The notes below the pieces were generated by a model, which was not told the origin of the DNA, searched no databases, and was given only the letters and a program-made list of their open reading frames with translations. The position numbers and the translations under genes were made by a program. 64,000 nt of DNA from Flavobacterium hercynium. Its GTDB lineage: Bacteria; Bacteroidota; Bacteroidia; Flavobacteriales; Flavobacteriaceae. Shown one piece after another: positions 5,262 to 25,770 of the stretch. How positions within the stretch are numbered: position 1 is the stretch's first letter; each line of letters starts with the position of its first letter. The stretch spans positions 1-64,000 of the forward strand of contig NZ_MUGW01000036.1 of the NCBI RefSeq assembly GCF_002217285.1, written 5' to 3'.

Positions 5262-6140
5262 ATGAGAAAGTTATACTATACATCAAATGCTCTTTTGCTA
5301 ATTTTTCTAGTTTTTTCTTCTTGCAAAAAGAACGAAACAAAAGAAACTAAAGAAATAGCTGCAACAAAAAAAACAGTTGAATACAAAAAACCGCAATCAA
5401 TTGGATTTCATTTTGAAAAAACAAAAGAATGGTTAGAAGCTAATAAAAGTGATTCAACCAAACTAGATATCGCTTACGCTGTAAACAGAACTGATAAAGC
5501 CAACTTTGCTAAATTGGATTCTGTTGTAATTCCGTCTGATTTTAGTGGTGATTTACCTTATTATCTTTCGTTTCCTATTCACGTTTCAAATTTGAAGGAA
5601 GTAAGCAAGGTTATTATCTTTTCTTATCCTTCTCAGACTTTTGCTGCGTATGAGAATGGTGATTTAGTATATACGGGACCAACAAACATGGGACGTAAGA
5701 AAGACCAAACGCCTACCGGATTGTTTTTTACGAACTGGAAAGCAGAAAAAACAACAAGTACTTTTAATGATGAGTGGGAATTGAAATGGAATTTTAACAT
5801 CGAAAACAAACTTGGTGTTGGGTTTCATCAATATGAGTTACCTGGATATCCTGCTTCGCATTCATGTCTTCGTTTGCTGGAAAAAGATGCAAAATTTTTA
5901 TACAAATTTGCTGATGAATGGATTCTGAAGGATAAAGAGAATGTAAAAGTAAAAGGAACTCCTGTTATTGTTTTTGGACAATATCCTTTTGATGGCCCAA
6001 AACCGTGGTATGCATTAGTGCAAGATCCAAAGGCTTTGAACATTTCTGAAGAAGAAGTAGAAAGTCAAACGCAGGGTTTTATACAAGAAATATTAGAAAA
6101 TCAAAAAGTTAGAGAAGCTGAATCCAATACAGCATCGTAA
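5262..6140 (+). CDS. L,D-transpeptidase (YkuD domain) lipoprotein
   Basis: This is a predicted lipoprotein of 292 residues. The signal peptide ends in the lipobox FSSC, giving a lipidated Cys21. The YkuD domain occupies the C-terminal half. It carries a histidine at 189 and the catalytic stretch SHSCLRL (199-205), with nucleophile Cys202 and Arg204. The usual form is SHGC, so the glycine before the cysteine is replaced by serine. Such enzymes make 3-3 peptidoglycan cross-links or attach proteins to the wall in the periplasm. The specific role here is unknown. A lysine- and threonine-rich linker follows the lipidated cysteine. It is transcribed alone and ends at a strong hairpin. Confidence 0.88.
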   Translation: MRKLYYTSNALLLIFLVFSSCKKNETKETKEIAATKKTVEYKKPQSIGFHFEKTKEWLEANKSDSTKLDIAYAVNRTDKANFAKLDSVVIPSDFSGDLPYYLSFPIHVSNLKEVSKVIIFSYPSQTFAAYENGDLVYTGPTNMGRKKDQTPTGLFFTNWKAEKTTSTFNDEWELKWNFNIENKLGVGFHQYELPGYPASHSCLRLLEKDAKFLYKFADEWILKDKENVKVKGTPVIVFGQYPFDGPKPWYALVQDPKALNISEEEVESQTQGFIQEILENQKVREAESNTAS

Positions 6141-6867: not shown

Positions 6868-6895
6868 ACCTACAAGGTTTTGAAAACCTTGCAGG
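6868..6895. repeat. REP-like palindrome, type A copy 1
   Basis: An imperfect 28-base inverted repeat centred on GGTTTTGAAAACC. The outer arms are of the CAAGG/CCTTG type. It is the first of four units that alternate in type. Confidence 0.8.
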
Positions 6896-6930
6896 AAAGC
6901 TAAATTAATATAGATTCTTATAAATAAAAT

Positions 6931-6958
6931 ACCTAACAGGTTTTGGAAACCTGTTAGG
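6931..6958. repeat. REP-like palindrome, type B copy 1
   Basis: A 28-base inverted repeat with CCTAACAGG/CCTGTTAGG arms around TTTTGGAAA. It starts 63 bases after the first unit and differs from it in the outer arm words. Confidence 0.8.
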
Positions 6959-6987
6959 AGAGCTAACTAAATATTATTTATTACTTG

Positions 6988-7016
6988 ACCTGCAAGGTTT
7001 TCGAAACCTTGTAGGT
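6988..7016. repeat. REP-like palindrome, type A copy 2
   Basis: A 29-base inverted repeat with ACCTGCAAGG/CCTTGTAGGT arms around a TTTTCGAAA centre. It is type A, like the first unit, and starts 57 bases after the second. Confidence 0.8.
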
Positions 7017-7039
7017 CTTTTTCTTTAAACATCGACAAT

Positions 7040-7067
7040 ACCTAATAGGTTTTGGAAACCTGTCAGG
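7040..7067. repeat. REP-like palindrome, type B copy 2
   Basis: A 28-base imperfect inverted repeat with CCTAATAGG/CCTGTCAGG arms. It is type B, like the second unit, and starts 52 bases after the third. Confidence 0.8.
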
Positions 7068-14523: not shown

Positions 14524-15801
14524 ATGCAACATATCATAGATCGCTTCATCAGTTATGTAACAATTGATACAGAATCTGACCCAAATTCACAAACTACACC
14601 AAGTACTGCTAAACAATGGAACCTTGCCAATAAATTAGTCGAAGAGCTAAAAGCAATTGGCTTAGACGATGTTACAATCGATGATAAAGCGTATATCATG
14701 GCTACTTTGCCAAGTAATGTGGAACATGAAGTGCCTACAATTGGTTTTGTTTCGCATTTTGATACTTCGCCTGATTTTAGCGGAGCGAATGTAAAACCTC
14801 AGATTGTTGAAAATTACGATGGAAAAGACATTATTCTAAATGCTGAAAAAAATATCGTTTTATCTCCAAGCTATTTCAAAGATTTACTGCAATATAAAGG
14901 GCAAACGATTATTACGACTGACGGAACTACCTTATTAGGTGCCGATGATAAAGCCGGAATTACAGAAATTGTATCGGCAATGGAATATTTAGTTCAGCAT
15001 CCTGAAATTAAACACGGAAAAATCAGAATAGGTTTTACTCCTGATGAAGAAATTGGCCGCGGAGCGCATCATTTTGACGTTGAAAAGTTTGGCGCACAAT
15101 GGGCGTACACGATGGACGGAAGTCAGATTGGTGAATTAGAATATGAAAATTTTAATGCTGCAGGAGCTAAAATTACTTTTAAAGGAAAAAGTGTTCATCC
15201 TGGTTATGCTAAAGGAAAAATGATTAACTCAATGCTGATTGCAAATGAATTTATCAACGAACTTCCAAAAGGCGAAACACCACAGGAAACTAAAGGTTAC
15301 GAAGGTTTCTTTCACGTACACCACTTAACAGGAAGTATCGAAGAAACGGTTTTAGAACTGATTATTAGAGATCACAACAAGATTAAATTCGAAAAGCGAA
15401 AAGACCTAATTGGAAAAATTGCTAAAAAAATAAATAAAAAATTCGCTAAACAATTTGGAGAAGATATTGTAACCACTGAAATAAAAGATCAGTATTACAA
15501 TATGAAGGAAAAAGTGCTTCCGGTAAAACATATTGTTGATATTGCTGAAAAAGCAATGAGAGAATTAAACATTAAACCGATCATTAAGCCTATTCGTGGC
15601 GGTACTGACGGATCTCAATTATCTTTTATGGGATTACCTTGCCCGAATATCTTTGCAGGAGGACACAATTTTCACGGAAAATACGAGTATGTTCCGGCAG
15701 AAAGCATTCAGAAAGCAACTGATGTAATTGTGAAAATCGCTGAATTGACTGCTATACCGGGTATTTTTGATGTAACAGAAAAACCGAAAAGAAAAAAGTA
15801 A
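14524..15801 (+). CDS. pepT: Peptidase T (tripeptide aminopeptidase)
   Basis: A cytosolic M20-family zinc aminopeptidase that releases N-terminal residues from tripeptides. The 425-residue protein has the expected metal ligands: His78 and Asp80 in SHFDTSP, the bridging aspartate in LGADDKAG (about 141), and the catalytic glutamate region DEEIGRG (174-180). The C-terminal half holds the lid/dimerisation domain and GGTDGSQLS. It is slightly longer than E. coli PepT because of a lysine-rich tail (EKPKRKK). It is transcribed alone and ends at a strong terminator. Confidence 0.96.
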
Positions 15802-15830
15802 GGAATGTAATCTGTCCAAAAATACATTTA

Positions 15831-15869
15831 AAAAAATCCCAAATTCTATTTCAGAATTTGGGATTTTTT
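15831..15869 (+). terminator. Terminator after pepT
   Basis: A 17-pair stem whose core is ATCCCAAATTCT/AGAATTTGGGAT, with a 5-base loop and flanking A and T tracts. A nearly identical hairpin is found at 18657-18693. Confidence 0.9.
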
Positions 15870-16012
15870 ATGCTTATATAATTTGTGCAATTGCTTTTTT
15901 TACTGCGAAATTTGTTGTTAAATTTTAAACTTAACATTTGTTTTGTTTGAGAACAAAAACTTACATTTACGCTCGAAAAAAATAACAAACCTTTTCTTAA
16001 TATCAATATTCA

Positions 16013-16081
16013 AAAGATGTCATCAACCTGACATTAGAAAAATATGGACTAAATGGGAAGGTGATTTTAAAGAAAAAATAA
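16013..16081 (+). pseudogene. Remnant of a paralogue of the 16680 gene
   Basis: Bases 16013-16064 match 16794-16845, inside the next exported-protein gene, at 47 of 52 positions by eye. In frame the fragment reads DVINLTLEKYGLNGKV, compared with DDINLTLEKYGLNGKV in the intact gene, then runs into a stop at 16079. Most differences are at third codon positions, so the copy drifted as coding sequence before it was lost. The remainder of the 15.87-16.11 kb gap shows no other gene. Confidence 0.65.
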
Positions 16082-16114
16082 AAACAATTATAAACCCCTA
16101 AAAAAAATTAAACA

Positions 16115-16555
16115 ATGGAAAAAGAAAAAAGTAAAGCAGGAAGGATAATGCTAATAATAAGTATCATTTTTTTAGCAATAACTTTATACGTTACTTATTA
16201 CAGATATACAAAAATTCAAAGAGCGATTTTTACTACGGGCAAAATTGTTCGTTTTGAAAAGAAAATTGAAGAAAAACGGGAAAATAATAGAACAAAAAAA
16301 ACAACTTTTTATTATCCTGAATTTGAGTTTAAAGATAAAACAGGGCGATTAGTAAATGTAAAATCAAATGCAGGTAAAGGAAATTCTCCTGCTTACAATG
16401 TTGGCGAAGAAATTGAAATTATGTATAGTCCCGACGATAGCAGCGATGCACAAATAAACGATTTTGCAAGTTTATGGTTACCAACTTTTGTCTTAGGTAT
16501 TTTTACTTTAATCTTTTCATTCGTTACTTATATCATAAGAAAAAAAGAACTTTAA
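16115..16555 (+). CDS. DUF3592 membrane protein
   Basis: A 146-residue protein with two transmembrane helices (about 11-30 and 122-142) flanking a soluble domain of about 90 residues. The pattern FTTGKIVRFEKK ... YYPEFEFKDKTGR ... YNVGEEIEIMYSPDDSSDAQI is typical of DUF3592, a beta-rich domain found in many bacteria and of unknown function. A charged linker (EEKRENNRTKKT) may be a loop. It lies between the paralogue remnant and the first YD-like gene. Confidence 0.8.
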   Translation: MEKEKSKAGRIMLIISIIFLAITLYVTYYRYTKIQRAIFTTGKIVRFEKKIEEKRENNRTKKTTFYYPEFEFKDKTGRLVNVKSNAGKGNSPAYNVGEEIEIMYSPDDSSDAQINDFASLWLPTFVLGIFTLIFSFVTYIIRKKEL

Positions 16556-16679
16556 TAGTTCTTTTTTTCTTATCCCTTTTATCCTTAACAGAATTTTCAA
16601 ACCTATATGTTTATCGGATCATGAAATTAAACTATAATTTTTCTATTATTACTTTTAGAAAATCCTTTCATAAAACAGT

Positions 16680-17561
16680 ATGAAGATCACTACCCTATTC
16701 TCATTTCTATTTATCTTTTCATCCCTACAAAGTTTTGCTCAAAGAAGCGAAAACAAAAGTAATCCTAAAACGAAAAATATTTACGAAGTAATTAAAGATG
16801 ATATTAATCTGACATTAGAAAAGTATGGACTAAATGGGAAGGTGAAAACAGTAGAACAAAAAACCCATTCTCTTCCTAAAGATTCTATAATTAATTTTAG
16901 TAATTATGAATTAATCGATCTAAATAAAGAGCACGAATATTCTAACCTTGCGGAAATGGATAATGATTGCAGAGTAACTTTTAATGAAAATGGTTTTCTA
17001 ACAAACAGAATTTCATTTGGAAACAGATTTGGCAGTAAGTCTGTAGTAACAGATGCCTTATTTTATGACAAAAACAATCAACTTATTATTAGTAAAAATA
17101 ATTTACTAGGCGATGATTTTTCATTTTCTGGCGACATAAAATTTGAGTATACTAAAACCGGACATCTTATTAAGCAACATGTAAAAAAGCAGGTATGGCT
17201 TTACAGTTATTTTGAAGATAAAAATCAGGTAAAAATTCTGCATCATGAAGATAATGAGTTCTGGTACGAGAATTTATATACTTATAATCAATTAGGACAA
17301 AAAATTGAAACTTTAAGGTATAAAAAGGACAAAACTATAGAAAGCCGTATCGTATATGAATATGATGATCAAGGAGAAATAGCAAAAGAGATACTCTTTA
17401 ATCCTGATGGTACATCTCAAGAATATTACAAGCACAAGTACGACCAAAACATAAAGGTTTATCAACAACTTGACAAAAATCAGAATTGCATAACAAGGAT
17501 TACAATTAACCCAAAATACACACCAACTATCAGAATAAGGAAAATTGAATATTATCAATAA
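16680..17561 (+). CDS. Exported YD/RHS-like repeat protein
   Basis: A 293-residue protein with a Sec signal peptide ending at SFAQ. The mature part has several short beta-hairpin units of the YEYDDQGEIAKE / YTYNQLGQKIET type, as in YD (RHS-like) repeats. It carries no toxin or core domain. A remnant of a close paralogue lies 0.7 kb upstream, and a related lipoprotein gene follows. Function is unknown; a surface or periplasmic binding role is possible but not shown. Confidence 0.75.
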   Translation: MKITTLFSFLFIFSSLQSFAQRSENKSNPKTKNIYEVIKDDINLTLEKYGLNGKVKTVEQKTHSLPKDSIINFSNYELIDLNKEHEYSNLAEMDNDCRVTFNENGFLTNRISFGNRFGSKSVVTDALFYDKNNQLIISKNNLLGDDFSFSGDIKFEYTKTGHLIKQHVKKQVWLYSYFEDKNQVKILHHEDNEFWYENLYTYNQLGQKIETLRYKKDKTIESRIVYEYDDQGEIAKEILFNPDGTSQEYYKHKYDQNIKVYQQLDKNQNCITRITINPKYTPTIRIRKIEYYQ

Positions 17562-17750
17562 AACTAAAAAAGAAAAAACTATGATCATTTAAATACTCTT
17601 TATCTAAGTGCTAATGTTGAATAACATCAATCAGAATCCTTTTCGAAAAATGTTATTAAAAATCATCAATCAAAAAGCTCAAAACAATTAGAAATAATAC
17701 ATTAAACAAAAGTACACACCAAACAAAACCAATATATAATCAATACCTTA

Positions 17751-18620
17751 ATGAAAAAAAATAATCTGATAAGCTTTTTACTTTTACTTTTTCTTGTGAG
17801 TTGCAACTCACAAGAAAAAGTAAAAGTAAAAAAAGGACATATAAAATCTACAAAAGAAATTGAGTACAATCTAGTTAACAATATTGTGACATATTCTAAA
17901 GGTGAGCGAGTAAGCTTGACAGGATTTGGTCAGGATCATATTGAAAATTTTGATTCTTTAGGAAATTTAAAAGAAACTTATAGCATATCCAATCTATCAC
18001 CAGACCTAAAGTTTGTTTTAAGATCTAAATATGAATACAACAAAAAAAATCAGCTGGTTTCGGAAATCCGTTACACAGATAAAAACACTGTTTTTTCAAC
18101 AACAACATGTAAATATGACAAGAAAAACAGATTAGAAAAAGAAGAATATATAGTAAGTAAAAACAGAGCTGGTTATCAAAGTTCTTTACAGGTTTACATG
18201 TACGATAAAAATCCAATTTTAAAGGCTGATCTTTTATTAGATACAATTACAAACAAGTATGAAGTCAATCATTATGAATTAATTAAAAAAGATAAAAACA
18301 ACAATATTTTAGAAACCATTTATCAAGATGCTGACGATAAAACATATCGGGAAGAATATCACAAATATGATAAAAACAATAATTGTATTAGTACCACTTT
18401 TGTAGAACAAAGATTTGAAGAAGAAAAAGAAAAGTCCACATTTGATTACGAATACAACAGTCATAATGATATTGTAAAATCTCTTTATAAAACAAAAAAA
18501 TACGAGTCTGTAACAAAATATCAATACGAATATGATAAATACGGAAACTGGATCATCAAAAAAGTTATAAAAGACGATGGTACTGGCAGCTATTTTGAAA
18601 GAGAAATTTCATATTACTAA
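17751..18620 (+). CDS. YD/RHS-like repeat lipoprotein
   Basis: A 289-residue predicted lipoprotein (lipobox LVSC, Cys18). It contains successive YD-type units such as YEYNKKNQLVSE, CKYDKKNRLEKE, YEYNSHNDIVKS and YEYDKYGNWIIK. It shares this architecture with the preceding exported protein, so the two are probably old paralogues. The signal-peptide codons lie in a perfect 58-base palindrome (17775-17832). Function is not known. Codon use is A-rich, like its neighbour. Confidence 0.75.
   Translation: MKKNNLISFLLLLFLVSCNSQEKVKVKKGHIKSTKEIEYNLVNNIVTYSKGERVSLTGFGQDHIENFDSLGNLKETYSISNLSPDLKFVLRSKYEYNKKNQLVSEIRYTDKNTVFSTTTCKYDKKNRLEKEEYIVSKNRAGYQSSLQVYMYDKNPILKADLLLDTITNKYEVNHYELIKKDKNNNILETIYQDADDKTYREEYHKYDKNNNCISTTFVEQRFEEEKEKSTFDYEYNSHNDIVKSLYKTKKYESVTKYQYEYDKYGNWIIKKVIKDDGTGSYFEREISYY
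17775..17832. repeat. Perfect 58-bp palindrome inside a coding sequence
   Basis: Two 29-base arms meet without a loop at GTTG|CAAC (17803/17804). It covers codons 9-28 of the lipoprotein gene, including the lipobox cysteine. The mRNA could fold into a long hairpin beginning about 24 bases after the start codon. Confidence 0.95.
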
Positions 18621-18656
18621 CTTAAATCAAGTTGCAATTCAAAATTTTAAAATAAA

Positions 18657-18693
18657 AAAAATCCCAAATTCTAAATTAGAATTTGGGATTTAT
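18657..18693. terminator. Bidirectional terminator between the YD lipoprotein gene and yajC
   Basis: The stem ATCCCAAATTCTA/TAGAATTTGGGAT has a 3-base loop, with A and T tracts on its flanks. It serves the convergent genes and repeats the hairpin found after pepT. Confidence 0.85.
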
Positions 18694-18713
18694 ATTTTAT
18701 AGTAATCTAAAAA

Positions 18714-18989
18714 TTATACTTTTTTGTTTAAAGCAGCACTCATTTCCATAGAAATAGCTGAACGCTCTAATTTTAATTTTCCAGACATTGTTTCAATAAT
18801 AACTGTTGTCTCAGCAAGCTCTGCCACTCTACCGTGAAAACCGCTTTTAGTAATTATTTTGTCCCCTACTTTTAGGCTGCTTTCAAATTCTTTTTCGTTT
18901 TTCGCTCTTTTTTGTTGTGGTCTGATCATGAAGAAATAGATTACCACGAACATTAATAGAAATGGCGCAAATTGAGTTAATTGTCCCAT
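18714..18989 (-). CDS. yajC: Preprotein translocase accessory subunit YajC
   Basis: A 91-residue single-pass membrane protein associated with SecDF. The N-terminal helix (FAPFLLMFVVIYFFMI) is followed by RPQQKRAKNEKEFE, the family hallmark, and by the soluble segment KVGDKIITKSGFHGRVAEL. It lies 43 bases downstream of nusB and is probably cotranscribed with it. Confidence 0.96.
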   Translation of the reverse strand: MGQLTQFAPFLLMFVVIYFFMIRPQQKRAKNEKEFESSLKVGDKIITKSGFHGRVAELAETTVIIETMSGKLKLERSAISMEMSAALNKKV

Positions 18990-19032
18990 AATTTAAATTC
19001 TGTTTTTGATTTATTATTATTTTTTTGAAATC

Positions 19033-19977
19033 TTACATTAAACCTCTTCCAACTTTTACCAGTTTTTTATTGGCTTCAAGTTCTTTTACAAGGTTATCTA
19101 AAATCCCGTTGATAAAAATACTACTTTTTGGTGTAGAATACTCTTTTGCAATTTCTAAATATTCGTTAAGAGTTACTTTTACAGGAATTGAAGGGAATTT
19201 TAAAAACTCACAAATTGCCATTTTTAAAATAATCGTGTCAATTTCAGCAATTCTTTCGCTATCCCAGTTTGGCGTTTTATCATCGTATTCTTTTGCTAAT
19301 ACTGATTCGTTTAAAACTGTTCTTCTGAATAAATCTTTTGCAAAATCCTTATCTTCAACGTCCTTATACAATTTAGGCACTCTAAACTCGTCAGGATTGT
19401 TGTTTTTTATTGCTTTTAATTGTTTAATGATATGTGTATTAACAACAGGAATATCATCAACCCAAGTTAACTTATCATCTTCAAGGTATTCGTATAACTT
19501 TTCGTTAGGAACGATTACTTCTGAAAACAAATCAATTATAAATTGTCTGTCTTCTTCAAATGTATTCGCAGTATTGCTCATGTATTTTGCATACACATCG
19601 CTTGCTTTAATATCATTTAAAAGCAAAATGATATAATCGTCATTTAAAGACCAATTGTTGATTTTACGGTTTTCTAAAGCGATGCTTAAGGAATTGCTTT
19701 CGGCAAGAAGCTGAAAAATTTTATTGTTTATAAATTTTTCATTAGGATTACGTTCTGCAGCAGTCGCAAGATGTTTTTTACTTGATAAATGCAAAAATAC
19801 AGATTCTTTTTTGCAAATTTCGATCAATGAAGAAACCATTATAAGATATAAGTCCTGAATATTATCAATACTATAAAAAAGAAACTTCTCTTCTTTTTCC
19901 ATATTATCAGAACCGCTTTGGTGCATTGCATAAATGGATTGCATTACTTTAACGCGTATGTGTCTTCTGTTTACCAC
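19033..19977 (-). CDS. nusB: Transcription antitermination factor NusB (long form)
   Basis: An RNA-binding factor that works with NusE (S10) in antitermination of rRNA operons. At 314 residues it is about twice the E. coli length. The N-terminus RRHIRVKVMQSIYAMHQSG is the usual NusB start, and the helical NusB core continues at the C-terminus (ILKMAICEFLKFPSIPVKVTLNEYLEIAKEYS, read in two parts, followed by FINGILDNL). The extra helical middle is normal for Bacteroidota NusB. The start is GTG at 19977 because the conserved RRHIR block begins at residue 4. Confidence 0.92.
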   Translation of the reverse strand: MVNRRHIRVKVMQSIYAMHQSGSDNMEKEEKFLFYSIDNIQDLYLIMVSSLIEICKKESVFLHLSSKKHLATAAERNPNEKFINNKIFQLLAESNSLSIALENRKINNWSLNDDYIILLLNDIKASDVYAKYMSNTANTFEEDRQFIIDLFSEVIVPNEKLYEYLEDDKLTWVDDIPVVNTHIIKQLKAIKNNNPDEFRVPKLYKDVEDKDFAKDLFRRTVLNESVLAKEYDDKTPNWDSERIAEIDTIILKMAICEFLKFPSIPVKVTLNEYLEIAKEYSTPKSSIFINGILDNLVKELEANKKLVKVGRGLM

Positions 19978-20005
19978 CTTGTAAGAACATTTAAAAATTA
20001 GTCTG

Positions 20006-20013
20006 CAAAAATA
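20006..20013 (-). promoter_or_regulatory. -7 promoter element (TATTTTTG) for nusB-yajC
   Basis: It matches TAnnTTTG on the minus strand about 28 bases before the GTG start. Confidence 0.6.
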
Positions 20014-20100
20014 AGTATTTCACACGTCAAATTAAAATTTATATCCATTAATTTTTTAAGACTCAAAAATCAAGTATAATTTCTGCCAAAATTTATTTTT

Positions 20101-20166
20101 ACAAAAAAAAATCCCAGTATTCACTTCCTGTTTACATGGTAAAACGGGATTGAATACTGGGATTGT
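20101..20166 (-). terminator. Terminator after leucine dehydrogenase
   Basis: A 14-pair outer stem AATCCCAGTATTCA/TGAATACTGGGATT encloses a smaller inner hairpin and is followed on the minus strand by a run of T. Confidence 0.85.
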
Positions 20167-20183
20167 AAAATAATAGTTTTTAC

Positions 20184-21290
20184 TTATTTTTTGCTGTTTT
20201 CAATTTTTCTCAAATCAATACGATTTTGAGCGATTGTTAAAGCAGCTTTATGTGTCGTCATGTTGTTTGCAACAGCATAATCAATAATTTCTAAAGTTGT
20301 ATTATAGATATTTTCTGTTTTGCTCATGATTTCTGCTTTACCATAATGCTCTAATTCAGCATAAACGTTGATAATTCCACCAGCGTTGATTAAGAAATCA
20401 GGTGCGTATAAAATACCTCTTTCCTGTAATCTTGCTCCGTGAACATTTTCATCTGCTAATTGGTTGTTGGCAGCACCAGCAATTACTTTAGCTTTGATTT
20501 TGTTTACTGTATTGTCATTGATTGTAGCTCCCATTGCACATGGTGCGTAAATATCAACATCAGCAGTATATAAATCTTCGCCTGTATAAATTGTAGCGTT
20601 GTATTTTGAAGCTACTTCATATAATTTTTCTTCGTTGATGTCTGCAATAGTAACTACTGCTCCTTCTTTAGTTAAATATTCTACTAAAGCTTCTCCAACG
20701 TGACCAATTCCCTGAACTAAAACTTTTTTACCATCTAAAACATCAGAACCAAACTGGCTTTTAGCAGCCGCTTTCATTCCTAAGTAAACACCATAAGCTG
20801 TAATAGGAGAAGGATTTCCTGAACCACCTCTTTCTTCAGAGATACCTGTAACGTAAGGTGTTACATCTCTAACAGTGTCCATATCTTTAGTTTCCATTCC
20901 AACATCTTCTGCTGTAATATATCTTCCACTTAGAGAGTGAACAAACTCACCAAATTTACGCATTAATTCAGGCGTTTTTTGTGTTTTTGCATCTCCAATA
21001 ATTACTGCTTTACCTCCACCAATATTAAGTCCGGTAATTGCAGATTTATAAGTCATACCTCTTGAAAGACGCAAAACATCGTTTAATGCTTCCCATTCGG
21101 TATTATAATTCCACATTCTAGTACCTCCTAAAGCTGGCCCCATAACTGAATTATGAATACCAATAATTGCTTTTAAACCCGTATCTTTGTCGTTGCAAAA
21201 TACAATTTGTTCGTGATCGTCAAAAGATAATTGACCAAAAACGGGATCCATTTTTTGAAGTTCCTTTCCAGTTGCGAAAGTTGCATCCAT
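20184..21290 (-). CDS. Leucine dehydrogenase (Glu/Leu/Phe/Val dehydrogenase family)
   Basis: It catalyses NAD-dependent oxidative deamination of branched-chain amino acids, the entry step of leucine catabolism. The 368-residue protein has the substrate-binding segment ALGGTRMW, the catalytic lysines in MTYKSAITGLNIGGGKAV (Lys82 and Lys94), and a Rossmann fingerprint VQGIGHVGEALVEYL. Length and the GGGKAV loop favour leucine over glutamate dehydrogenase, which is longer. HMG-CoA lyase of the same pathway is encoded 8.4 kb away. Confidence 0.93.
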   Translation of the reverse strand: MDATFATGKELQKMDPVFGQLSFDDHEQIVFCNDKDTGLKAIIGIHNSVMGPALGGTRMWNYNTEWEALNDVLRLSRGMTYKSAITGLNIGGGKAVIIGDAKTQKTPELMRKFGEFVHSLSGRYITAEDVGMETKDMDTVRDVTPYVTGISEERGGSGNPSPITAYGVYLGMKAAAKSQFGSDVLDGKKVLVQGIGHVGEALVEYLTKEGAVVTIADINEEKLYEVASKYNATIYTGEDLYTADVDIYAPCAMGATINDNTVNKIKAKVIAGAANNQLADENVHGARLQERGILYAPDFLINAGGIINVYAELEHYGKAEIMSKTENIYNTTLEIIDYAVANNMTTHKAALTIAQNRIDLRKIENSKK

Positions 21291-24671: not shown

Positions 24672-25217
24672 ATGAATACACATTTATTAATTTTACCCGG
24701 ACTTGGTAATTCCGGAGAGAAACACTGGCAAACTTTCTGGCATGAAAAATTCAAAAATTCAACACGTGTAGTACACGACAATTGGGATGAGCCTGTACGC
24801 GAAGAATGGATTGCACGATTAAACGAAGAAATTTCTAAACTTGAAGAACCTACTGTTTTAGTTGCTCACAGTCTTGCCGTTTCACTCGTTTTGCATTGGA
24901 CAGCCTTGTATACTAACAAACACATTGTTGGAGCTCTATTAGTTGCTCCCGCCGATGTAGATTCACCGGAACATACTCCTGAATGTATTCGGAATTTCGC
25001 ACCTATGCCAACGCAAAAGCTACCATTTCCATCTATTGTTGTAGCTAGCGAAAATGATCCTTATGCTTCTTTCGAAAGAAAAAAATATTTTGCCGAAACA
25101 TGGGGAAGTGATTTGGTAAATGTTGGTAAACAAGGACACATCAACTCTGATTCTGATTTAAAATATTGGGAAGAAGGGCAAGTTATTTTGCAGCAGCTGA
25201 TCAAACGTATAGGATAG
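24672..25217 (+). CDS. RBBP9/YdeN-family alpha/beta hydrolase
   Basis: A small 181-residue hydrolase without a signal peptide. The sequence begins LLILPGLGNSGEKHWQ, typical of RBBP9/YdeN proteins, and has the nucleophile elbow VAHSLAV (Ser67). The C-terminal histidine lies in KQGHINSDS. These are serine hydrolases of uncertain physiological substrate. The gene follows the secreted esterase closely on the same strand. Confidence 0.88.
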   Translation: MNTHLLILPGLGNSGEKHWQTFWHEKFKNSTRVVHDNWDEPVREEWIARLNEEISKLEEPTVLVAHSLAVSLVLHWTALYTNKHIVGALLVAPADVDSPEHTPECIRNFAPMPTQKLPFPSIVVASENDPYASFERKKYFAETWGSDLVNVGKQGHINSDSDLKYWEEGQVILQQLIKRIG

Positions 25218-25430
25218 TGGTCAGTTTGTTAGTGGTCAGTGTTCAGTTTCTTTTAGTGTTCAGTTTTTTAGTATTTCACTGATTTTATTTTAGCCAATGA
25301 AATTCTAAACCAAAAACATTAAAAAAAGGAGTCCTTGGCGCTAAATACTAAGTACTAAGAACTAAGTACTAAGTACTAAAAAACTAAGAACTAAGAACTG
25401 ATCACTAACAAGCTGAACACTGAATACTAA
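25218..25430. repeat. Degenerate short-word repeats (GTTCAGT and AAGTACTA families)
   Basis: The convergent gap is filled with reiterated words: TTAGTG/GTTCAGTTT on the left, and ACTAAGTACTAAGAACTAAG on the right. The two halves are roughly complementary in word type (AGTGTTCAG and CTGAACACT), so the region could pair with itself. No reading frame is evident. Confidence 0.75.
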
Positions 25431-25434
25431 GTAA

Positions 25435-25770
25435 CTATCCTATTCGAAGTCCGTTTTCTACTTTAAAGTCGGGTGCTAATAATATAACGTCTCCCTCCTC
25501 GCCTACTGCGCCAAGAACAAGGCATTCACTCATAAATTTCCCGATTTGTTTTTTAGGAAAGTTAACTACTGAAACGATCTGGCGATTTACTAAATCTTCT
25601 TTTTGATAACGTTTGGTAATTTGAGCCGAAGATTTTCTGATTCCAATTTCGGCACCAAAGTCTATTGTAAGTTGATAGGCAGGTTTTCTGGCTTCAGGAA
25701 AATCATTTACTTCGATAATTGTACCTACACGCATATCTGTTCTTTCGAATTCACTCCAGGTTAAATCCAT
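25435..25770 (-). CDS. csaA: tRNA-binding-domain protein CsaA
   Basis: A 111-residue protein consisting of a single OB-fold EMAP/tRNA-binding domain. The sequence has FERTDMRVGTIIEVNDFPEARKP, read as FERTDMRVGTI plus EVNDFPEARKP, and ends with VENGLRIG. CsaA homologues are homodimers reported to bind tRNA and to have chaperone-like export activity. Length is exactly that of the family. It is transcribed alone. Confidence 0.93.
   Translation of the reverse strand: MDLTWSEFERTDMRVGTIIEVNDFPEARKPAYQLTIDFGAEIGIRKSSAQITKRYQKEDLVNRQIVSVVNFPKKQIGKFMSECLVLGAVGEEGDVILLAPDFKVENGLRIG

Follow-up and report, generated by a model that had tools for sequence, protein, structure and literature searches.

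A perfect 58-bp palindrome across a lipoprotein signal peptide of Flavobacterium hercynium, probably kept symmetric by copying between its arms

A lipoprotein gene of Flavobacterium hercynium contains a perfect 58-bp palindrome that is real and inherited, as relatives with matching symmetry in two other species show. We consider it probable that this palindrome arose and stays symmetric by DNA-level copying from arm to arm, i.e., by template switching, and not through any need for symmetry. Position numbers refer to the window, the 64-kb stretch of contig NZ_MUGW01000036.1 (forward strand) that was analysed. Gene names combine a label with a start coordinate: C56 is a contig of the window's own genome (locus L028), G004 is Flavobacterium sp. 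KMS (L037) and G250 is Flavobacterium sp. HSC-32F16 (L069).

17751..18620, + strand: palindrome-bearing lipoprotein gene, 289 aa
17775..17803, + strand: upstream (left) arm, coding for the hydrophobic core and lipobox (FLLLLFLVS, then two bases of the Cys codon)
17802..17804, + strand: lipobox Cys codon TGC, with the palindrome centre between bases 2 and 3
17804..17832, + strand: downstream (right) arm, with the third Cys-codon base, NSQEKVKVK and one further base (polar tether)

The two 29-nt arms at 17775-17832 are 100% complementary and separated by a spacer of 0 nt. The symmetry ends at the arm limits, with the first outer bases (17774 and 17833) unpaired. The palindrome begins with codon 9 and ends on the first base of codon 28, and its centre lies inside the lipobox Cys codon, after TG. 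An inverted-repeat recount confirmed the coordinates, the perfection, the lack of a spacer and the closeness to the cysteine that the first-pass annotation had reported. In this register, codon position 1 faces position 1 and position 2 faces position 3, the arrangement termed phase 1 in PMC6649704. The product starts MKKNNLISFLLLLFLVSC followed by NSQEKVKVKK (also given as MKKNNLISFLLLLFLVSCNSQEKVKVKKG) and is a bacterial lipoprotein with a type II signal peptide (MKKNN..LLLLFLVSC, lipobox judged by eye). Its n-region, hydrophobic core and lipobox Cys, also judged by eye, agree with the earlier description as a valid lipoprotein signal.

Chance does not produce such a structure. In 40 first-order Markov simulations of 64 kb each, the longest spacer-free palindrome per simulated window had arms of 8-11 nt; the real window contains arms of 29 nt, followed by 9, 8 and 8 nt. 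The arms of this lipobox frame are also more alike than coding need allows. Given the peptide and the codon usage, perfect 29-nt arms have an exact probability of 1.9e-8, and none of 200,000 sampled synonymous versions was perfect (highest 28, mean 16.2 of 29 pairs). The simulations, the sampling and the exact value together uphold the earlier claim that chance cannot explain the palindrome. For two HSC-32F16 genes, perfection over 23 pairs occurred at frequencies of 0 and 1e-5 among 200,000 synonymous samples, although these genes are related and therefore not independent cases. Another 21 lipobox frames found by motif reach at most 16/29 pairs; the motif misses G004_7704 and C56_9939, and the pairing of both was counted separately. 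The window and the compared loci (343,625 bases, a non-random sample because many loci were chosen for carrying the palindrome gene family) contain five perfect inverted repeats with arms of at least 20 nt and a spacer of 0-6 nt. Open frames of more than 300 codons contain four of the five, each in a signal peptide of the palindrome type: the window's one, two of L069 and one of L037.

Codon choice alone could in principle have left the palindrome as a by-product, if FFLVSCNSQEK in an AT-rich genome is near self-complementary and luck supplied the remainder. The average of 16.2 pairs among synonymous versions speaks for this idea, as does a lipoprotein elsewhere in the window, unrelated and with its Cys at 5322, that pairs somewhat above its own synonymous versions. 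Against it stand the probability of 1.9e-8, two more perfect, albeit related, genes and the ceiling of 16/29 in the other lipobox frames, so that we give it very little credence. The signal at 5322 (LIFLVFSSCKKNETKE) forms 15/23 pairs across its Cys, a value reached by 0.6% of synonymous versions, and 16/29 pairs, a value reached by 11%. C56_8893 and L081_8770 show no pairing excess over their synonymous versions.

Fold-back chimeras can make perfect palindromes, and an assembly or chimera error had been raised as a worry. The palindrome is in frame, however, homologues with the same symmetry occur in two other assemblies, and imperfect copies lie elsewhere in the same genome. An artefact is thus very unlikely.

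The 289-aa lipoprotein has no match in Pfam (E 0.1) or NCBIfam (E 0.01), and its structure model (mean pLDDT 40.4) is too poor for use. At E 1e-5 its mature part shows no relation to the array lipoprotein family described below. Whole-protein orthologues were rejected as a basis for comparison: there were none among 41 candidate contig stretches, and only partial, weak relatives were found in 2 of 298 other Flavobacterium genomes. The comparison was therefore built on the signal peptide and its other carriers.

The signal-peptide DNA has three further matches in its own genome, all imperfect and all on contig C56. HSC-32F16 carries two adjacent array genes with identical perfect 23+23 (46-bp) palindromes at the same place in the signal peptide, and KMS carries one gene (G004_6727) with a 20+20 palindrome around a 2-nt centre.

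L028 13014-14036: C56_13014, gene with an imperfect palindrome copy
L028 9939-10880: C56_9939, gene with an imperfect palindrome copy
L028 14047-14103: C56 relic, a stand-alone, non-coding copy of the signal peptide
L069 15408-15453 and 16428-16473: palindromes of G250_15387 and G250_16398

Counted around the same centre, the pairs out of 29 number 29 in the window, 26 in G250_16398, 24 in G250_15387, 23 in G004_6727, 22 in the C56 relic and 20 each in C56_13014 and C56_9939. The sister genes G004_7704 and C56_8893 form 13 and 10. Over 23 pairs, C56_13014 scores 19, the C56 relic 18, C56_9939 17, and the sisters G004_7704 and C56_8893 11 and 8; G004_7704 already contains 7 perfect central pairs. 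The first-pass annotation had asked whether orthologues keep the protein and not the palindrome, and the answer is mixed. Within the clade of carriers the palindrome is perfect over 23+23 twice and over 20+20 once, but one copy is degraded (19/23), and both sister genes keep CNSQEK with the low pairing just given.

A pattern search allowing at most one mismatch placed the palindrome motif in 3 of 398 genus genomes. The fourth genome matched, G382, was rejected as a carrier, since its match is a chance one without a signal peptide. A widespread CNSQEK signal was likewise dismissed: a degenerate pattern hit 2 of 150 genus genomes (the own genome and KMS), and the pattern with at most one mismatch hit 4 of 398. 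L086, one of three matching contig stretches, is a chance match in another frame.

Stand-alone relics of the signal peptide occupy the same place in two genomes, directly behind the last array gene (L028 14047-14103 and L069 17402-17433). The HSC-32F16 relic has lost its right arm, while both coding copies of that genome are perfect. In C56_9939 the lipobox Cys is replaced by Ser (SSYSQEK vs SCNSQEK of its relatives), and a symmetric base pair differs at the palindrome centre.

The C56 island consists of a PAAR-like gene of the DUF4280 family (E 2.7e-16), an effector-like gene that encodes 988 aa and matches nothing in Pfam, and a tandem lipoprotein array. By likeness of the translated genes, the same arrangement occurs in KMS (L037) and HSC-32F16 (L069). 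In all three genomes the array lipoproteins are tandem copies behind a PAAR-like spike and an effector gene, and this gene order suggests that they are putative immunity lipoproteins of a contractile injection system. The array lipoproteins that were scanned match no Pfam or NCBIfam family. A structure model of a clade A array protein is of moderate quality (mean pLDDT 65.4) and has no PDB fold match at E 0.001. VipB (PF05943) was found in none of the three genomes; the Bacteroidetes type may escape PF05943.

The surroundings of the palindrome gene resemble such an island:

15833..16000, + strand: island-leader-like region, 86% identical to the region before the DUF4280 effector island of C56 (L028 4109-4271)
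16680..17561, + strand: neighbour gene with a signal peptide (by eye), whose product aligns globally with that of the palindrome gene at 26% identity
17569..17711, + strand: decayed 3' remnant of an array lipoprotein gene, with a TAA breaking its frame and SKQLEIIH* at its end, homologous to C56_13014
18659..18691, + strand: terminator-like inverted repeat after the palindrome gene, 16+16 with a 1-nt loop

The decayed fragment is of the clade A type and lies directly upstream of the palindrome gene. When the own genome was searched at E 0.01, the product of 16680-17561 did not come up as a relative of the palindrome gene. Among the open reading frames at 14524-21290 there is no PAAR-like spike or effector gene; the leader region and the decayed array gene remain, and the locus looks like a relic of a DUF4280 effector/lipoprotein island. 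Lying behind no such spike and effector, the palindrome gene of the window is not classed as an immunity gene. A short broken remnant at 16013-16077 (KDVINLTLEKYGLNGKVILKKK*) resembles the N-terminal part of the 16680-17561 product (DDINLTLEKYGLNGKVKT), a sign of duplication and decay in the window island.

A tree was built from 46 mature domains, after removal of 8 fragmentary rows from a set of 54. Four palindrome carriers form a single clade in it, G250_16398,(G004_6727,(C56_13014,G250_15387)), with support of 100/99. Relatives of this clade (C56_8893, G004_7704 and G250_14344, the last with its frame broken upstream) start with CNSQ behind a different hydrophobic core. The sister genes C56_8893 and G004_7704 share TCACAAGAAAAA yet pair poorly. 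Because they possess the downstream arm largely without the upstream arm, the downstream arm (CNSQEK) looks older and the upstream arm derived, a direction of copying read from a few sister genes. One transfer adds to this clade: C56_9939 carries the palindrome-type signal FFLVSSYSQEK, without the Cys, although the closest mature domains in the tree follow SCAQN or SCGQN signals.

The two arms have changed together. In an ungapped alignment of six homologous 58-mers from three genomes (the C56 relic was left out on account of its indels), 8 of 29 pairs have changed on both sides, compared with 3.5 ± 1.2 in shuffles, 0 of 500 of which were as high. Six of these eight lie within the inner 23 pairs. 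The covariation score is 0.198, against 0.114 for shuffles, which keep the shared ancestry, and 0.031-0.096 for slid structures, an excess that is partly expected since the copies were found by their likeness to the palindrome. Of the 120 cells at arm positions 3-22, 113 hold Watson-Crick pairs; the remainder are 3 G-T and 4 other combinations. A Ser codon AGT (vs Asn AAT) in the upstream arm of KMS is matched by AAC (vs AAT) downstream. Two G-T mismatches of C56_9939, at arm positions 17 and 20, are C-G and T-A in the window copy; if C56_9939 resembles the ancestor of that copy, these mismatches were resolved in opposite directions. All six aligned copies use the Val codon GTG in the upstream arm, although GTG makes up 9% of Val codons (open reading frames of four sequences). 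This is expected if the codon was copied from TCAC.

Synonymous conservation between orthologues is at most slightly raised in the palindrome, and the numbers are small. G250_15387 and C56_13014 use the same codon at 10/14 same-residue sites inside the palindrome and at 176/250 elsewhere. Other cross-species pairs of the clade give 10/14 vs 80/147, 11/14 vs 110/183, 11/14 vs 90/151 and 9/12 vs 120/177. The two HSC-32F16 copies share 15/15 codons within the palindrome vs 89/156 elsewhere, and this identity, together with the lost right arm of the relic from the same genome, calls for gene conversion between the copies or for selection. The non-coding C56 relic pairs no worse than the imperfect coding copies on the same contig (22 vs 20 and 20 of 29).

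How might such a structure have formed? We propose quasi-palindrome correction by polymerase template switching, possibly also with heteroduplex repair of a hairpin or cruciform. PMC8604942 and PMC8794818 describe template switching between the arms of inverted repeats, both within coding genes and as a source of stems. The ancestor of the clade would have had ...SCNSQEKK..., as the sister genes do. A switch at the Cys codon would then have copied the downstream arm, reverse-complemented, into the place of the hydrophobic core and thereby produced FFLVS. The protein could have kept working, since the hydrophobic codons (second base T) face the polar Lys, Glu and Gln codons (second base A) through wobble positions. 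As the T and the A each face the wobble base of the partner codon, a Lys/Glu/Gln-rich tether reads as a Phe/Leu/Val-rich core when reverse-complemented. Reverse complementation turns polar NAN codons into hydrophobic NTN codons, which would be why arm copying is tolerated, and phase 1 is, according to PMC6649704, the least constraining register for coding palindromes. Later mismatches would have been resolved to perfection in some copies, with the longest result (29) in the window, and recombination may have moved the signal peptide to other genes, the window gene among them. An mRNA hairpin would be a by-product of these events. Of the two mechanisms suggested by the first-pass annotation, template switching is thus the better supported, with covarying arms and a derived-looking upstream arm, but no single switch event can be read. 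Judging by the sister genes, the downstream arm may have served as the template for the upstream one, but the sequences have diverged too far for one clustered change to be isolated.

The other suggestion was an mRNA hairpin that governs translation or export. Such a hairpin, if selected, may slow the ribosome during synthesis of the signal peptide or tune the output of an immunity-like lipoprotein, with compensatory changes maintaining the stem. A 27-bp stem with a UGCA loop is indeed predicted from nucleotide +25 of the coding sequence (centroid -34.7 kcal/mol), and the 151-nt stretch folds with a z score of -6.76 against 200 shuffles, none of which was as stable. Perfect pairing in three coding copies, next to the decayed HSC-32F16 relic, would fit this idea as well. 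Arm covariation is expected from hairpin selection and from template switching alike and does not separate the two. On the other hand, departures from Watson-Crick pairing at arm positions 3-22 show no preference for G-U (3 G-U and 4 others in 120 cells), and codon identity between orthologues is not raised (10/14 vs 176/250). Of 23 pairs, the coding copies C56_13014 and C56_9939 form 19 and 17, on a par with the 18 of the non-coding C56 relic. The sister genes, which belong to the same arrays, do with 8 and 11. Moreover, the symmetric change of C56_9939 at arm position 2 lies inside the predicted RNA loop and costs the lipobox Cys. Template switching accounts equally well for whatever supports the hairpin, and we consider a selected hairpin unlikely.

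Recombination could also be the primary cause. The palindromic signal block would then be a cassette that moves between array genes, with the hairpin or cruciform as a hot spot, and provides new mature domains with an export signal. Identity between copies on different mature proteins does peak within 30 nt on either side of the Cys codon: it amounts to 0.77 and 0.70 between the window and C56_13014 (0.20-0.47 in other 30-nt bins) and to 0.83 and 0.77 between C56_9939 and C56_13014 (0.60 in the next bin downstream, 0.20-0.40 in the others). Three kinds of mature protein carry the block in one genome (clade A, the C56_9939 subfamily and the window gene), and the fourth copy is the stand-alone relic. 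However, a decaying tandem array that undergoes short homologous exchanges or deletions would look alike, and neither an enzyme nor a target site was seen among the listed genes. The three genomes hold no convincing copies elsewhere, and C56_10891 and C56_11864, with different mature parts, share a signal peptide that is not palindromic. This makes the cassette distinctly improbable as the main explanation. In a combined model, the reverse complement of the tether forms the export core, arm copying renews the block, and array genes exchange it at the palindrome, so that new, immunity-like mature domains would obtain a working export signal; we hold this to be marginally less probable still. 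A dispersed repeat or transposon found no support: the four sites in the own genome all lie in the array family or its derivatives, and the further matches listed are short A/T-rich stretches.

Palindromic DNA that is read in frame inside unrelated proteins is known from the palindromic elements of Rickettsia. The Flavobacterium palindrome differs from these elements in that convincing copies occur only in the array family and its derivatives, with no genome-wide dispersal into unrelated genes. Rickettsia elements lose arm identity over time, according to PMC6649704. The same paper describes mitochondrial coding palindromes of nematomorphs that are similar in being perfect repeats with both arms coding and phase 1 favoured; there, too, function is doubtful and arm conversion is suspected. 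Unlike these repeats of up to 284 bp, the Flavobacterium palindromes are 46-58 bp long, reside on a bacterial chromosome in one gene family and commonly have imperfect copies. Quasi-palindrome correction, according to PMC8604942 and PMC8794818, homogenises arms by multi-base and compensatory changes, also within coding sequence. For yeast, arms of 7 to 16 bp are described (PMC8604942). The present case differs by arms of 20-29 bp with almost no spacer or none, by its clade-wide occurrence over a signal peptide and by the lack of a single dated event. Palindromic amphipathic repeats (PARCELs; PMC2996958) share dyad symmetry in coding DNA, occurrence in surface lipoproteins and shuffling from gene to gene; they are tandem 25-residue repeats, whereas the Flavobacterium palindrome is a single unit at the signal peptide. 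A limited search of the literature returned no report of a palindromic lipoprotein signal peptide, which leaves the absence of one unproven.

A known mechanism, slips of replication, has probably acted here in an unusual place, a clear bacterial case of a long coding palindrome with covarying arms that spans species. The case suggests how the polar tether of a signal peptide, once reverse-complemented, can furnish that peptide's hydrophobic core, and it cautions against taking covariation in a coding stem as proof of a selected RNA structure. If the cassette were real, it would offer fast-changing immunity-type lipoproteins a route to export signals, and the hydropathic complementarity of NTN and NAN codons would make signal peptides preferred sites for coding palindromes.

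Other repeats were noted along the way. In another Flavobacterium (L071 573-630), two 28-nt arms form an inverted repeat around a 2-nt loop, away from any long open frame. The window has a cluster of imperfect direct and inverted repeats of the ACTAAGAACTAAGTACT type at 25216-25436 and, at 6868-7067, four REP-like palindromic units of 28 nt (ACCT....AGGTTTT.GAAACCT....AGG) with a start-to-start spacing of 52-63 nt.
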